From Akkermansiaceae bacterium (lineage in GTDB: Bacteria; Verrucomicrobiota; Verrucomicrobiia; Verrucomicrobiales; Akkermansiaceae), in assembly GCA_029253285.1 (NCBI GenBank), contig JAQWZU010000028.1:1-41256 (forward strand): a stretch of DNA of 41,256 bases, in the 5' to 3' direction. Below the pieces are notes generated by a model. It did not search any database, had not been told where the DNA came from, and saw only the letters and a program-made list of their open reading frames with translations. Each line of letters begins with the position of its first letter. Within the stretch, counting starts at the first letter, position 1. The translations under genes and the position numbers were made by a program. Below are positions 539 through 25,079 of the stretch, in pieces.

Positions 539-2764
539 TTACTTGGTGGCTTGTTCGAGCGCTTCAAGTGCTTCCCCGGCACCGAAGAATTCAGGCATGA
601 TAATCAGTTTCTGATCGGGATCCGCCGGCACGATGATGTTCACGGGCAAATTAGATCGTCCATTTTCCCCGTAGCGTTCCAGATCGGCGTTAATGGCCGG
701 ATCACCATGGGTATTGTCCGCCTTTACGAGAAGAACATCGAGTTCCTCAAGACGCTCCAAAACTTCTTTGCTTGAGAACACACGGCCCTCATTTGCTTTA
801 CAGGTGAGTCACCAATCAGCGGTGTAATCGACCCAGACAATTCGTTTTTTGGTTCGAGAAAGCTCAATCACTCCGGGATACCATTCCTGCCAAGCGAGCC
901 CGTCCTTCGGCTTTTTCGACACCGAATAGGCCCAGGTCAATCCACCGAAAATCATCAGACCGGAGAGAGCATACCCCGTCACCATCCGTTTGGTTTTTGA
1001 GGTAATTGGAGTTCCCCAACGTCCGTAGAGATAGGCCCCAAGCCCGATCAAGGTCAGAGCAAAAAGGAAGTAATTGAAGTGTTCCTCACCCACGAGGGTA
1101 AGATAACTCTTAAGGAAAAAAACCACCGTCGCAAAGACCAGGAAAGCCATGATTTGCTTGAAGCTCTCCATCCAGGCTCCCGGCCGAGGAAGCTTTTTGA
1201 TCAATGCGGGGAAGAACGAGAGGACGATGTAGGGGCTGGCAATACCAAGTGCAAAAACAGTGAAAACAGCAAAGGCAATTGGCTTGGGTTGCGAGAGCGC
1301 AAAGCCCATCACTGCTCCGAGGAATGGTCCAGAACACGGCGTGGCAATGAGAGTCGTAAGCACTCCGGAAAAGAATGATCCGGAGTAGCCTTTCTTGCCC
1401 TGTAATTCACCACCAACCCCGGTGAGGCTCGTCCCAATTTCAAACAAACCAAAGAGGTTCAGGCCCATCGCAAAAAGGAGAACAATAATTGCGCCGAGGA
1501 AAATCGGATTACTCAGCTGTTCTCCCCAGTTCAAATTGAGGGATATAATTACCGCAGACAAAATCCACATCGTCACCAAAAGACCCAGACCAAATACCAG
1601 ACCATGAATTTTGATCTTCTTTTCGTCTTCTCCGGCTTGGGCCACAAAGCCCATGACCTTCAAGCCAAGAACCGGAAACACACAGGGCATTAAATTTAAA
1701 AGCAGACCGCCGATGAAGACAAAGAAAAGAGAGGATCCAAAAGTTACTTTCTTTTCCTCAATTCCGCCAGGCAGGACGATCTCAAGCTTGGCATCGACAT
1801 CGTAAAGTTCTGCTCCCGCCGCGATGTCTTCTGCCGTGGCTTTCACCGTTTCCAGATGAACTGCCGGCGCCGGAGCCATGTCCACTCCTGGAGGGTCGGC
1901 AGCATCGGGATTTGCCGAAAGCGGAATCGAGACATTCACCGCCGCTCTGCCGGTTTCCGTTTGGTAAACTAACATTCCCGACATGGTTTCCAGAGTCGGT
2001 CCTTTATCGATGAAGAGATCTTCATTTCCGAAATTACGGTCAAAATACGCAATGATCATTTGCCCATCAACTTCGGCGTCCTGCAATGACTGGCTGTCCA
2101 CTTGCTGGTCGGAAGAGAAGAAGTAGATCCCATCTTCCTGAATCGAAATTCCGTCCGGAGCGGTCGCAGTGAGAGAGAACGAGCCCTCTTCCTCAACAAC
2201 TTCAAAAATCCAGCCATCCGCTGGTTTGGCAACCGGAGGGTTTTCAAAAACCGCGACAGCGGCGGCATTAGGAACGGTCGCGGCGGCAGATTTGATTACG
2301 AGGAAAATCTCTCCGGATTCCTGAACACAGCTGCCTTCATCACAAATCTGCCAACCTGCTTTTCCGCTGATCGTGAGATCTTTTCCGAGAGCCAGTTCTT
2401 TTGGAGCGGTGATCTCGTAGTAAAAAGCAACTTCTCCTTCGTATCCGTAGAGCACGGTATCCAGCCCGCCTGACTTCGTTTCGATCGCCCGGGGAATAGC
2501 GAAAATCGTCTCACTCGCCGTAAACCCATCGGGGAGCGCCCAATCAACCTTCATCGAAGTCCCAAGAATTCCCGGGTTTACGTAATAAGAATGCCAGTGA
2601 TCGGGATGGTTGAGCTGCAGGGCAATTTTGAAAGTCTCGCCCGGAGCAATCCCAGTAACTTGAGATACCGATTTGAAGGTGGACTTATCACCACCACCAA
2701 ACTGCGCATTGCCCAGAGATGAGAGGAAAAACGTGAGGAGGAGAATCAGTGATCGTTGCATCAT
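539..2764 (-). CDS. DsbD-family thiol:disulfide interchange protein, probable selenoprotein (in-frame UGA)
   Basis: The product moves reducing power across the cytoplasmic membrane to periplasmic thiols. Read through one TGA (811-809) it is 741 residues: signal peptide (1-20); DsbD N-terminal domain with a C141/C146 pair in WQICDEGSC; membrane domain with about eight helices from residue 345 to 612, carrying the Cys of NLMPCVFP (361) and TPCSGP (477); and a C-terminal thioredoxin domain. The thioredoxin motif is normally ADWCLTCK. Here it reads ADW-TGA-LTCK, so the stop replaces the first catalytic Cys, and the frame continues for 89 more thioredoxin-like codons to a TAA. I read residue 652 as selenocysteine. 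The start at 2764 precedes the signal peptide; an open frame running further upstream overlaps trpS and is not believed. A sequencing error (TGC or TGT to TGA) or a truncated gene remains possible. Confidence 0.8.
770..796 (-). promoter_or_regulatory. Candidate bacterial SECIS hairpin after the in-frame UGA
   Basis: On the coding strand, TGAG (791-788) pairs with CTCA (776-773) around an 11-nt loop that begins GG (787-777). An outer GC/GC pair (796-795 with 771-770) is separated by a small internal loop. The first loop G is 22 nt past the UGA. Bacterial SECIS elements lie just downstream of the UGA, with a G at the top of the loop, so position and loop fit. The stem is short and was found by eye, so support is modest. 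Confidence 0.35.
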
Positions 2765-2944: not shown

Positions 2945-3910
2945 ATGAGAATTTTGACCGGCCTGCAACCAAGCGGACGTCTTCACGTGGGAAATTACTT
3001 TGGCGCGATCAAACCAGCCATCGATGCCCAGGGCGAAGGCGACGGTTATTATTTCATCGCGGACTATCACGCGATGACGACGACCCACAATCCCGCCGAG
3101 CTCCGCGAAAACGTCCGCGGCGTGGCTATCGATTTCCTCGCCTGCGGTTTCGACCCTTCGAAAGGCGTCTTTTTCAAGCAAAGCGCGGTCCCTGAGGTCA
3201 ACGAACTGGCTTGGATTCTCTCGACAGTTTGTCCCATGGGACTTCTCGAACGTTGCCACTCTTATAAGGACAAAATCGCCAAGGGCATCTCGGCCAATCA
3301 CGCGCTTTTCGCTTATCCCGCGCTCATGGCGGCGGACATTTTGCTCTACGATTCCAACATCGTGCCCGTCGGTGATGACCAAAAACAACACCTTGAAGTT
3401 ACCCGTGATCTCGTCGGCAAGATTAACGACCAATACGGCGAGGGCACCCTCGTCATGCCTAAAGCCCGCATTCTTGAAGGCGTTGCCAAAGTCCCCGGAC
3501 TCGATGGCGAGAAGATGAGCAAAAGCTACAATAATACTCTCCCCATCTTTGGCGACGAGAAGCCGAACAAGAAACTCATCATGCGGATTCAGACCGATTC
3601 CGCCGCCGTAGAGGATTCCAAGCCCACGGAGAATTCCGTCATCCTAGCACTCTACCAACTCTTCGCCGGCAAATCGGAATACCAACAAATGATCTCCGAC
3701 TACGAGAATGGCGGATGTGGATACGGTGACTTTAAAAAGCGTCTGGCAGAAGCTTACTGGGATTACTTCGCTCCCATGCGTGCCAGACGCGAAGAACTCA
3801 TCGCCAATCCCGACGAGGTCGATTCCGTCCTCGCCGCCGGTGCCGAGAAAGCCCGCGAAGAAGCCAGCAAGGTCATCGACCGTGTGCGCAAGGCAGTGGG
3901 CTTGATATAG
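2945..3910 (+). CDS. trpS: Tryptophan--tRNA ligase
   Basis: A 321-residue class I aminoacyl-tRNA synthetase that charges tRNA-Trp in the cytoplasm. The N-terminus TGLQPSGRLHVGNYFG carries the HIGH-type signature (HVGN, residues 14-17), and GEKMSKS gives the KMSKS loop (190-194). GDDQKQHLEVTRD (143-155) is the usual tryptophan/dimer region. The length is normal for bacterial TrpS. It is divergent from the DsbD-like gene, with about 180 nt between the two starts that must hold both promoters. The next gene is convergent, so trpS appears to be a single-gene unit. The identification is secure. Confidence 0.97.
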   Translation: MRILTGLQPSGRLHVGNYFGAIKPAIDAQGEGDGYYFIADYHAMTTTHNPAELRENVRGVAIDFLACGFDPSKGVFFKQSAVPEVNELAWILSTVCPMGLLERCHSYKDKIAKGISANHALFAYPALMAADILLYDSNIVPVGDDQKQHLEVTRDLVGKINDQYGEGTLVMPKARILEGVAKVPGLDGEKMSKSYNNTLPIFGDEKPNKKLIMRIQTDSAAVEDSKPTENSVILALYQLFAGKSEYQQMISDYENGGCGYGDFKKRLAEAYWDYFAPMRARREELIANPDEVDSVLAAGAEKAREEASKVIDRVRKAVGLI

Positions 3911-3914
3911 CAAA

Positions 3915-4415
3915 TCACTTCTTCGGAGCCTTCCTGAACAGCATACGTTTGTCACCTGGTGCCTTGGCTTTCCAGAGCTCCTCTTGAGCCCTTTCGTAAA
4001 CCGCTTTTGCCTCATCGTATTGTTTCTCCGTATAGGGAGGATTGGGAACGAGGCGCATCTTCCCATCGTCATCTTCGCGAAAAGTATTTCCAATCATCTT
4101 CGCCAGAAGGCTTCGTTTCTCCTGAATCAGGGCGGAGAGCTTTTTGATCTCTGCATCTTCGCGCTTGAGAGACTCAAGAGCCTTTCGGTAAGTGAGTTTG
4201 GTATCGATAATTTCAGGTTGGACGCTCTTCGGCAAATCAAACAGCGGAACAAAAATCTCTCCGGGGCCCTTCTTGCTTTCCGCAAGAGCAACCCGCGCTT
4301 TATCGAGCGTTAATTTGTCGCGAGTCTGGGTGACTTTCTCCTTTTCCTGTCCCTGACAAGAGAAGGAAATAAGCCAGCTCCAAAAGAAATATTTGAGCAT
4401 CCTATTCATGTCCAT
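3915..4415 (-). CDS. Small exported charged helical protein, unknown function
   Basis: A protein of up to 166 residues. The N-terminus MLKYFFWSWLISFSCQGQ looks like a signal peptide with a Cys near the cleavage point, so it may be a lipoprotein, although the residues before the Cys (S-F-S) are not a canonical lipobox. The rest is rich in Lys, Glu and Ala and probably alpha-helical or coiled coil (about residues 75-145). I do not recognise a family. Three ATG starts are possible (4415, 4409, 4400). The first two overlap the stop of the upstream dioxygenase-like gene, so the two are probably translated together. Confidence 0.65.
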   Translation of the reverse strand: MDMNRMLKYFFWSWLISFSCQGQEKEKVTQTRDKLTLDKARVALAESKKGPGEIFVPLFDLPKSVQPEIIDTKLTYRKALESLKREDAEIKKLSALIQEKRSLLAKMIGNTFREDDDGKMRLVPNPPYTEKQYDEAKAVYERAQEELWKAKAPGDKRMLFRKAPKK

Positions 4416-5076
4416 CGTCAGGGGTCACTCCCAACACAATATTAAACTCGCCACTCAACTCCCCCGCTTTTGAATTTGGAATGGGAGCGAATTTCACCAT
4501 GAGATGTTTCACCGGATCACCGAGACGTTTGATCAATCCGTCTTTGGCATTTCCTTTGTCCCCATCGATAAAACACTGGGTCGTCAGCGCGCGTTTGTTG
4601 CCACGATAGACGGCGACATGGATATGCGGAGTCCGCGGTCCATAGGGAACCGGCTTGATCGTTCGAAAATAATAACGTCCGTCGCGCCCGGTCATGAAAC
4701 GCCCGAAGCCCTGGAAATTGGCATCGCGCTTCGGTCCGGTGAGCCCTCCGTCTTTAGAGTGGATATACGCGCCTTTATTATCTGCCTGCCAAATCTCAAC
4801 CCGCGCGTTGGAAACCGGATTGCCTTTCAAATCCGTCACCTTGCCATGAAGATGGGTGATCGCTCCCACGGCTGGCGTAATCCCATCGTTGATTCGCAAA
4901 AGATCATTATCCGTATCCAGAGGAAGCTTGTCCGGATAAAAAGGCCCTTCCGTCATTGGCGGGGTTTCGGAAAGCGCTTCAGCAAAAACCCCGGGCACAG
5001 TAAAAAAAGCAGCGGAACCCAATGTCGCTCGTTTTAAGAAGTCACGACGTTCGCAAAGGTGGTAGTTCGAAATCAT
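4402..5076 (-). CDS. Intradiol ring-cleavage dioxygenase-like protein, Tat signal
   Basis: This 224-residue protein resembles the beta-sandwich fold of protocatechuate 3,4-dioxygenase, which opens catechol rings using a ferric iron held by two Tyr and two His. Seen here: a Tat-type leader (CERRDFLKRA, residues 8-17) before a hydrophobic stretch; TEGPFYPD; GNPVSNARVEIWQADNKGAY, with a candidate Tyr ligand; and YGPRTPHIHV, which supplies a second Tyr and the H-x-H pair. All four metal ligands therefore seem present. Exported members are common in environmental bacteria and their substrates are mostly unknown, so aromatic degradation is not proven. It is upstream of, and overlaps, the 3915-4415 gene. 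It is divergent from the ABC ATPase, with 59 nt between the two starts. Confidence 0.85.
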   Translation of the reverse strand: MISNYHLCERRDFLKRATLGSAAFFTVPGVFAEALSETPPMTEGPFYPDKLPLDTDNDLLRINDGITPAVGAITHLHGKVTDLKGNPVSNARVEIWQADNKGAYIHSKDGGLTGPKRDANFQGFGRFMTGRDGRYYFRTIKPVPYGPRTPHIHVAVYRGNKRALTTQCFIDGDKGNAKDGLIKRLGDPVKHLMVKFAPIPNSKAGELSGEFNIVLGVTPDDGHE

Positions 5077-23364: not shown

Positions 23365-24207
23365 ATGACTGAACATGAGTTGATCGGGTATGTTTTCATG
23401 GGAACGCTTGGGGCCTTCTTTTTATTAGGCCTGCCTGCGTATTATTTTCTGCGGAAAAATCGAAACCTTGCTCGTCCGCCGGTTTTGGGGAAAGTGGCGA
23501 CTTGGCCGCTTCAGCCGCTCGATTTGATTGTTGCCAGCGGGTATATTGCCTTTTTCGTTGCGGGCTGGAAATTGTCCGGGTCGGTAGATCAAAAGGAGGC
23601 GTTCTCGAAGGCTAATGCTTGGATGATCGCCGGGAATTCCCTCGTTATGCTCATGTTTGCGGGGATGGTTCCGCTGGTGATGTTTTGGCGGATTCGTCCG
23701 GAAAAGTTTTTTGGACTGAATTGGCCGAAGTGGCGGTGGATTTTTCTGATCGTGCCCTGTTTTTTGGTGGGAGTGATGGTGGTCGCTACCATCATTATGG
23801 CTTCGGGCTGGCAGAAGTTTGTGGAGGGAAATTTTGGCGGCGATGTGCAGGCGACGGTTCAAATGATCATGGAGACCCATGACGTTGCCTTGATGGCGGC
23901 GATGATTTCCGCGGCTGTGATCGGAGCTCCGATTGCCGAGGAGATTATTTTCCGCGGTTACCTTTATCCGGTGGCCAAAAAATACACGAGCACCTGGTTT
24001 GCCGCTTTGTTTACCGGAGTGCTTTTTGGGGTGGTGCACATGAACCTTCTTGGTTTTCCTATTCTCGCCTTGATGGGAATGGCTCTGGCCGTTCTCTATG
24101 AACGAACCGGTTCCTTGTGGGCTCCGATATTTTGTCACATGGCCTTTAATGGGATGCAGATGTTCTTCATGTTGTTTTCGAAGTACTTTCCAGTTCCGGC
24201 GTCATGA
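23365..24207 (+). CDS. CPBP-family intramembrane glutamic protease
   Basis: A 280-residue membrane protein with about eight helices. The catalytic motifs are AEEIIFRG (191-198, catalytic Glu pair and Arg), FGVVHMN (His225) and CHMAFNG (His258, Asn262), which define the CPBP/CAAX-protease (Rce1/Abi) family. Substrates in bacteria are mostly unknown; some members give bacteriocin immunity. Its stop overlaps the thiL start by 4 nt (ATGA), so translation is coupled. Confidence 0.92.
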   Translation: MTEHELIGYVFMGTLGAFFLLGLPAYYFLRKNRNLARPPVLGKVATWPLQPLDLIVASGYIAFFVAGWKLSGSVDQKEAFSKANAWMIAGNSLVMLMFAGMVPLVMFWRIRPEKFFGLNWPKWRWIFLIVPCFLVGVMVVATIIMASGWQKFVEGNFGGDVQATVQMIMETHDVALMAAMISAAVIGAPIAEEIIFRGYLYPVAKKYTSTWFAALFTGVLFGVVHMNLLGFPILALMGMALAVLYERTGSLWAPIFCHMAFNGMQMFFMLFSKYFPVPAS

Positions 24208-25079
24208 AAACGATTGAAGAATTGGGAGAAGATGGATTGATCGCGCAATTGTGTGAAGGCCTTCCGTCGACTGAAAGAGTGGTCGTTGGTCCGGGAGATG
24301 ATTGCGCGGTGGTTGAGGTGGGGGACGAATGGGTTCTTTTGAAAACCGACGCGGTGGTGGAGGGCGTTCATTACTTGTCGGGCGAAAATGCCAAGCGAGT
24401 CGGCTGGAAAGCAGTGGCGAGAGTCTTGAGTGATTTTGCTGCGATGGGAGGGGAACCCGGTGAACTTTTGGTGACGGTAGCGGTCTCGCGAGAGGTCGAA
24501 GTACGGTGGCTCACGGATCTTTATGAAGGAATGAAATCCTGTCTGGAGCAATTCGGGGGAGTGATTGTCGGTGGCGAAACGAGCTCGCTACCAGCGGGTG
24601 CTCCGGCCGTGGTTTCTATCGCAGGACGGGGGAGGGTGTCGCGGAAGCGATTGGTGACACGGTCCGGAGGCAGGGCGGGAGACGATATTTTTGTCACCGG
24701 AGTGTTGGGTGGATCAATCAATGGAAAGCACTTGGATTTTCATCCCCGCCTTCGGGAGGCGACTTGGTTGACCGAAAATTTTTCCCTCACCGCGATGATG
24801 GATTTGTCGGATGGTCTGGCAAAAGATCTCCCCCGATTGGCGAAAGCCAGTGGCTGTGGATTTTCTATCGAGAAAGAATCTGTCCCTTGCTCGGAGGACG
24901 TGTCACTTCAGGAAGCGCTCGGAGATGGTGAGGACTATGAGCTCCTCTTCACCTGTGAGCAGGGGAGTAAATTACTGAAAAAATGGGCCGATTGCTTTCC
25001 CGGTTTGCGATTGACAAGGATTGGTGAATTGACCGCAGACCAGGAAGATTCGTTGGTCGGCGGCTGGGATCATTTTTGA
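24204..25079 (+). CDS. thiL: Thiamine-monophosphate kinase
   Basis: A 291-residue enzyme that phosphorylates thiamine phosphate to the active diphosphate. ThiL features: GPGDDCAVVEVGDEWVLLKTDAVVEGVH (about 30-58), WKAVARVLSDFAAMGG, MMDLSDGLAKDLPRLA and ALGDGEDYELLF. The related selenophosphate synthetase SelD shares the fold but has a Cys/Sec active loop and different metal motifs that are absent here. It overlaps the CPBP gene; no other thi genes are near. Confidence 0.93.
   Translation: MKTIEELGEDGLIAQLCEGLPSTERVVVGPGDDCAVVEVGDEWVLLKTDAVVEGVHYLSGENAKRVGWKAVARVLSDFAAMGGEPGELLVTVAVSREVEVRWLTDLYEGMKSCLEQFGGVIVGGETSSLPAGAPAVVSIAGRGRVSRKRLVTRSGGRAGDDIFVTGVLGGSINGKHLDFHPRLREATWLTENFSLTAMMDLSDGLAKDLPRLAKASGCGFSIEKESVPCSEDVSLQEALGDGEDYELLFTCEQGSKLLKKWADCFPGLRLTRIGELTADQEDSLVGGWDHF

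Follow-up and report, generated by a model that had tools for sequence, protein, structure and literature searches.

Transmembrane disulfide reductases of the E. coli DsbD type combine a DsbD_N domain, a DsbD_TM membrane domain and a C-terminal thioredoxin (gamma) domain, and are described by the NCBIfam model NF001419. ScsB-like reductases are represented here by the solved structure 6c29, annotated as a 'putative metal resistance protein', which we take to be ScsB. The conserved domain cd02953 is presumably the gamma domain of DsbD. A 2008 account of selenoproteins in the marine GOS data contains a row for 'Trx-like 2 (Thiol disulfide interchange protein)', assigned to cd02953 and carrying a UxxC motif, where U is selenocysteine (Sec); the figures in this row (22, 13 and 2,098) are read by us as Sec sequences, samples and Cys homologues, respectively (PMC2398784). 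Two reviews, one of them PMC13188914, list a 'Thiol:disulfide interchange protein' (PF13098, UxxC), and a 2006 table (PMC1794560) has entries for proteins of this name from Syntrophus and from two species of Geobacter; in all of these it is left unstated whether a full DsbD is meant. TsoB, a rhodanese/DsbD fusion-like double selenoprotein, has two Sec residues in a UxxxxU motif (NF045694; PMC13188914), and a further GOS entry is described as a 'Prx-like protein (U/CxxC) fused with ... Pfam11412' (PMC9402790). A literature search that covered few subscription journals found, in the passages it returned, no paper naming a Sec-containing DsbD.

The gene described here lies in a window of 41,256 nucleotides (the whole stretch of DNA analysed), which is contig C66 of an Akkermansiaceae genome of 4.3 Mb in 224 contigs, 96.7% complete. 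The closest named relatives are metagenome-assembled genomes (MAGs) of Verrucomicrobiaceae, Akkermansiaceae and Verrucomicrobiales, including TMED86 at 97%. The relevant features, all on the minus strand, are as follows.

2764-539, minus strand: DsbD/ScsB-like protein-disulfide reductase gene, 741 residues, Sec at 652
2327-2344, minus strand: redox pair of the N-terminal domain, Cys-141 and Cys-146, in invariant alignment columns
1682-1684, minus strand: membrane-domain Cys-361 (MPCVFP), invariant column
1334-1336, minus strand: membrane-domain Cys-477 (TPCSGP), invariant column
827-829, minus strand: Asp-646, equivalent of E. coli DsbD Asp-455 (PMC3961690)
809-811, minus strand: in-frame TGA read as selenocysteine, codon 652, at the position of E. 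coli DsbD Cys-461
800-802, minus strand: resolving Cys-655, the second Cys of U-x-x-C
788-790, minus strand: Glu-659 codon GAG, equivalent of E. coli DsbD Glu-468, within the 5' arm of the hairpin
773-791, minus strand: SECIS-type hairpin of 7 bp, loop CGUGU (784-780), the loop starting 24 nt past the UGA
539-808, minus strand: 89 thioredoxin-domain codons 3' of the UGA, then TAA

With E. coli-type DsbD the predicted protein shares the three-domain order, all redox positions and the alignment of the gamma domain; it differs in having Sec in place of Cys-461. Its N-terminal part is, we assume, longer than that of E. coli DsbD, and it is in this region that the protein resembles 6c29. The GOS cd02953 row is alike in having Sec first in UxxC, in describing a thiol:disulfide interchange domain and in being marine, and unlike in that the passage containing it gives no full protein, host or SECIS element. 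The NCBIfam model of TsoB matches the membrane domain and the larger part of the thioredoxin domain; unlike the window protein, TsoB has two Sec residues in UxxxxU, as well as a rhodanese domain, which Pfam did not find in the window protein. The GOS Prx-like fusion includes PF11412, the same DsbD_N model that matches the window protein, yet it is peroxiredoxin-like, and its short description does not mention a membrane domain. A Sec-containing UxxC thiol disulfide interchange domain is already known as a kind from marine reads, which may come from the same protein; new here are the full-length three-domain DsbD/ScsB-like protein, its hosts, the SECIS element and, close to the Sec/Cys position, what may be a switch between Glu and Lys.

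Translation of 2764-539 gave 742 codons including a terminal TAA (541-539), with a single internal stop, the TGA at 811-809. The sequence-only reading had claimed that this lone stop falls exactly on the first Cys of the thioredoxin motif and that the frame runs on for 89 more thioredoxin residues, and both claims hold: the TGA is codon 652, in the context VDYTADW-U-LTCKANEG, and the Thioredoxin_7 match extends across it. With the standard bacterial code the protein would end at residue 651, and the thioredoxin active site would be lost. Seven TGAs in the window have at least 100 open codons before and at least 60 after them, and only the one at 811-809 lies in a U-x-x-C motif. The frame is open upstream as far as 3433. 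We infer that the gene starts at 2764; the relative L024 shares the MMQRSLILLLTFF start with the window gene and L027 starts with MHRAL at the same place, the other aligned rows being trimmed to match coordinates.

With the TGA read through (C for U), Pfam matches DsbD_N at residues 40-156, DsbD_TM at 347-552 and Thioredoxin_7 at 624-712, all above cut-offs. The predicted protein also has a leader and follows the DsbD superfamily order of N-terminal periplasmic domain, DsbD_TM and C-terminal thioredoxin domain. In an alignment of 12 sequences (our own and 11 relatives), six redox positions, two per domain, are invariant, namely Cys-141, 146, 361, 477 and 655 together with position 652, which is Sec or Cys. 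While phmmer with the single protein gave no match in the PDB, the profile of this alignment matched the DsbD gamma-domain structures 4ip1, 2fwe, 1uc7, 4ip6, 7aye and 1vrs. In the printed alignments (4ip1, 2fwe and 1uc7), U-x-x-C falls on ADW-C-VA-C-K, i.e., on Cys-461/Cys-464 in the numbering of E. coli DsbD (PMC3961690), and position 652 corresponds to the first Cys. For the N-terminal region the best solved-structure match was 6c29 (profile 13-231 to chain 22-224). NF001419 scored 116.9 bits, below its cut-off of 330. The best NCBIfam score, 167.7 bits over residues 344-699, was obtained with the TsoB model NF045694, whose cut-off is 805; membership in TsoB was rejected. Since both scores lie below the respective cut-offs, we file the protein as DsbD/ScsB-like and as a member of neither model. 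The label 'DsbD-type' given by the sequence-only reading stands as regards the three-domain order and the redox positions, and is made more exact by 'DsbD/ScsB-like', as the N-terminal region is closest to 6c29. DsbD_TM matched once in the genome, and no second DsbD_TM protein was found in this assembly.

Directly 3' of the DsbD stop, at 224-526 on the minus strand, the window holds a degraded copy of a gamma-type thioredoxin, which is interrupted by an internal TAG and has lost both active-site cysteines (KADWDVSDK); among relatives, L026 has an uninterrupted Cys-less match to it, and L024 and L025 match at the two ends only. A class I tRNA synthetase of the W/Y type (2945-3910, plus strand) is divergent from the DsbD gene, and a neighbour protein with Pfam Dioxygenase_C is encoded at 4402-5076 on the minus strand. 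On contig C124 of the same genome (57917-58618), a 282-residue frame (L063) encodes a stand-alone protein that resembles the DsbD N-terminal domain and is possibly a separate partner. No tRNA was found within the window by ARAGORN, and no Rfam match at the gathering threshold.

According to the sequence-only reading, a Sec-x-x-Cys DsbD implies that this organism makes selenocysteine. The genome contains tRNA-Sec (54 bits, cut-off 47; named SeC(tca) by ARAGORN), SelA (490.6 bits), SelB (274.6 bits, cut-off 242.25) and SelD (373.5 bits). The selD gene (L020, 1501-2430, contig C135) has one in-frame TGA (SSCGG-U-ASKLG). An 8-bp hairpin lies downstream, its loop GUC starting 33 nt after the UGA, and fits the published SECIS pattern; SelD of this organism is, from its sequence, probably itself a selenoprotein. 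Judged by its genes, the organism is able to make selenocysteine.

Codon 652 was then compared among relatives. A search of 144 genomes, our own included, gave a match in 143, and the codon was read in 87 of the 144, each genome being counted once by its best match: it is TGA in 36, TGC or TGT in 51 and nothing else in any, a ratio that is no measure of prevalence given the fraction read. Eleven loci were set aside as duplicates of counted genomes (L053-L060, L064, L112 and L120, with L062 kept instead of L120), and L050, L061, L063 and L123, which fall short of codon 652, were left out of the counts. All 36 best matches with one in-frame TGA were read, and in all 36 the TGA is at codon 652. 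They come from ten genera and two families. Within the window's own genus, 24 of 27 genomes were readable and all 24 have TGA; the gene is cut by a contig end in G005, and matches are weak in G011 and G015. In an even sample of the phylum (387 genomes, 155 of them matched at 1e-40), TGA occurs, among the matches listed, only in our own genome and in G061 from the same family. A tblastn search against plasmids returned 280 records, all below 60% identity.

Across the 144 genomes, SelB was matched at E <= 1e-58 in 68, and over the curated cut-off in 67. A match is present in 34 of 36 Sec genomes versus 16 of 51 Cys genomes (one of these, G125, below the curated cut-off), the remaining 35 Cys genomes having none; the association is significant by Fisher's test with relatedness ignored (p 1e-9). 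As Cys-DsbD genomes with SelB do exist, the machinery does not force the use of Sec. SelA was sought in ten genomes without a SelB match. It is present in G008 and G118, the two Sec genomes without SelB, and in G005 and G015, and was not found in G029, which has no DsbD match, or in G030, G031, G066, G132 and G048, which have Cys-DsbD. All 36 TGA genomes have a match to SelB or SelA.

A tree of the 87 proteins was built by a quick method with the trait columns masked and was midpoint rooted, and it contains some long branches. One side comprises 36 rows, all Cys, and the other 51 rows, 36 Sec and 15 Cys. Approximately six changes of the Sec/Cys label are needed, at least five of them on starred branches. 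Nested most closely among the Sec rows are five Cys rows (L052, L066, L072, L067 and L092); none of their genomes has a SelB match, and SelA was found in neither of the two tested (G030 and G031). The mixed side has ten further Cys rows, and for five of these the genome does contain SelB.

The published model of bacterial SECIS elements specifies a loop of 3-9 nt, a stem of 4-16 bp, a G in the first two loop positions, a distance of 16-37 nt after the UGA and a minimum free energy (MFE) of -7.5 or lower (PMC13188914). The window gene agrees with this model as quoted there: its hairpin, UGAGGGC-CGUGU-GUUCUCA, has 7 bp and a 5-nt loop with G second followed by U, at a spacing of 24 nt, and the energy is -8.1 for the 51-nt segment and -5.7 kcal/mol for the hairpin alone. 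In Sec genes the hairpin occupies a fixed place, bases 20-26 pairing with 32-38 around a loop at 27-31 (the U of UGA being 0). All seven pairs are possible in 20 of 33 distinct Sec segments versus none of the 51 Cys segments (all Cys segments are counted), and at least five in 29 of 33, while five are possible in 4 of the 51. When 30 Sec segments were aligned, 87.6% of cells were able to pair, and sliding the partner lowered this to 27-67%. Covariation was also observed: 15 cells had changed on both sides, compared to 4.4 in shuffles, and none of 500 shuffles was as high. The exchanges seen in the stem are U-A/C-G and C-G/G-C. Among the five pair measures, two fail to rise clearly above the shuffles: pairs with changes on both sides number 3, a value reached by 27 of 500 shuffles, and further pair types number 7, reached by 466 of 500.

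An explicit rule (at least 5 bp, loop of 3-9 nt, G in the first two loop positions, spacing 16-37, -5 kcal/mol or lower) recovered a hairpin in 26 of 36 Sec genes, in one of 51 Cys genes and in 5.6-6.3% of codon-order shuffles. The Sec genes without one are L039, L042, L043 and L084, and six more in which it is weaker than -5 kcal/mol. In each gene's own best fold, the hairpin appears in 27 Sec genes (absent in nine) versus one Cys gene. RNAalifold, given 30 Sec sequences, kept only four of the seven pairs, and the consensus energy was weak (-0.8 kcal/mol). The published energy limit for 51 nt, taken alone, does not separate the two sets, being reached by 30 of 36 Sec and 36 of 51 Cys genes. 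Codon choice follows the hairpin: the stem Glu codon in the 36 Sec genes is GAG in 34 and GAA in one, compared with a GAG:GAA ratio of 600:635 upstream, and the loop Arg codon is CGT in 28 of 30 cases versus 69 of 357 upstream, these counts coming from related genes that are not independent.

Selection on the codons past the UGA was estimated from nine hand-chosen, non-independent pairs of Sec genes, eight of which yielded a dN/dS value for this part. The value was 0 to 0.17 in seven of them and 0.28 in L023/L026, the pair with the highest dN; seven pairs also had a value for the 300 codons preceding the UGA, and in six of these it was the lower of the two. The values indicate that the thioredoxin end is constrained, yet less so than the stretch before the UGA, and that the codons past the UGA are under purifying selection. 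The length of this end is also kept, with 89 codons in 21 of 36 TGA genes, 85-98 in 14 and one cut by a contig end. Elsewhere UGA still terminates genes: the AIRS-domain gene at 24204-25079 of the window ends in TGA, as do three more of the 14 window frames inspected, and the DsbD genes L027, L046 and L104 of relatives themselves end in this codon. A general reassignment of UGA was rejected on these grounds.

We conclude that the product of the gene is almost certainly a true selenoprotein. It would be a transmembrane reductase of the DsbD/ScsB-like type, with Sec-652 taking the position of the first, nucleophilic Cys in the gamma domain. The sequence-only reading had called it a probable selenoprotein, and this is now supported by the sel genes, by a codon 652 that is only ever TGA or Cys, and by the covarying hairpin 24 nt after the UGA. 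If this were a normal Cys-DsbD gene disrupted by a nonsense mutation, or one in which a base had been misread, its product would be a 651-residue stump; such a reading would fit the fact that a single codon is affected and that TGA is one base away from TGC or TGT. The presence of the same TGA in 35 other genomes shows that it is not a sequencing error; its spread over 36 of 87 genomes in ten genera and two families, the purifying selection downstream, and a hairpin that accompanies the TGA and is very rare in Cys genes make such a defect, whether misread or a pseudogene, extremely improbable, and it was rejected. It is likewise very unlikely, if slightly less so, that the UGA is decoded as Cys or Trp and not as Sec, owing to selenium shortage or a near-cognate tRNA. 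Cys is indeed always the alternative residue at the site in the 87 genes, and Cys in place of Sec has been reported for human selenoprotein P; against this stand the full Sec route of the genome, with its tRNA-Sec and a SelD that has its own TGA and hairpin, the SECIS-type hairpin in the gene itself, and codon 652 being TGG in none of the 87 genes.

A selenium switch could operate on top of Sec insertion, in that without selenium the stump would have a role of its own and with selenium the full form would be made. Termination is known to compete with Sec insertion, and the stump would retain the N-terminal and membrane domains; transfer by DsbD requires the gamma domain, and we consider a switch of this kind unlikely.

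The pKa of 10.6 of Cys-461, the attacking residue of E. coli DsbD, is due to Asp-455 and Glu-468 (PMC3961690). The equivalent of the former, Asp-646, is kept in 86 of 87 proteins. Position 659, the equivalent of the latter, is Glu in 35 of 36 Sec genes (His in the other), and in the 51 Cys genes it is Lys in 42, Glu in eight and Arg in one. The tree provides approximately five independent pairs, of which 4.4 on average change in the same way (median p 0.125), too few to decide on a coupling. The link between Glu/Lys and Sec/Cys may be a real coupling, as Sec needs no lowered pKa; equally, GAG may simply be needed for the hairpin stem. Seven Cys forms of family f3 (L068, L070, L071, L078-L080 and L114) have kept Glu at the usual Lys position, and in the same forms the ADW before the Cys is replaced by TTHN, TTIN or TTLG. 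A broader proposal, which we put forward tentatively and regard as rather doubtful, is that in this group of Verrucomicrobiales a selenoenzyme serves as the single DsbD-type channel through which reducing power is exported, and that the exchange of Sec and Cys is coupled with a switch of charge at a site four residues beyond the resolving Cys; the acidic pair would be tolerated by Sec and relieved by Lys in the presence of Cys, and the periplasmic thiol balance would follow selenium supply.

From the sequence and the machinery present, the hairpin located 24 nt downstream would bring SelB with Sec-tRNA to the UGA, and the ribosome would insert Sec there and read 89 more codons to the TAA. By analogy with E. 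coli DsbD and from the conserved residues, electrons would pass from the cytoplasm to Cys-361/Cys-477, on to the Sec-652/Cys-655 selenosulfide, then to Cys-141/Cys-146 and finally to periplasmic clients. The selenolate would be the better nucleophile, and would stay ionised next to the acidic Asp-646 and Glu-659, in whose vicinity a Cys would have a higher pKa. The role of strong electron donor that had been ascribed to a Sec-x-x-Cys DsbD would follow from selenium chemistry.

With a single DsbD_TM protein found in the fragmented, 96.7% complete assembly, this organism probably relies on selenium for the DsbD-type reducing power of its periplasm. Redox balance outside the inner membrane may be tied to this element, and if the protein is the sole DsbD, selenium supply would set periplasmic reducing power in these bacteria. 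Sec and Cys have replaced each other repeatedly at this site, possibly together with a Glu/Lys change, so that the reason why cells use Sec can be tested on existing natural variants.
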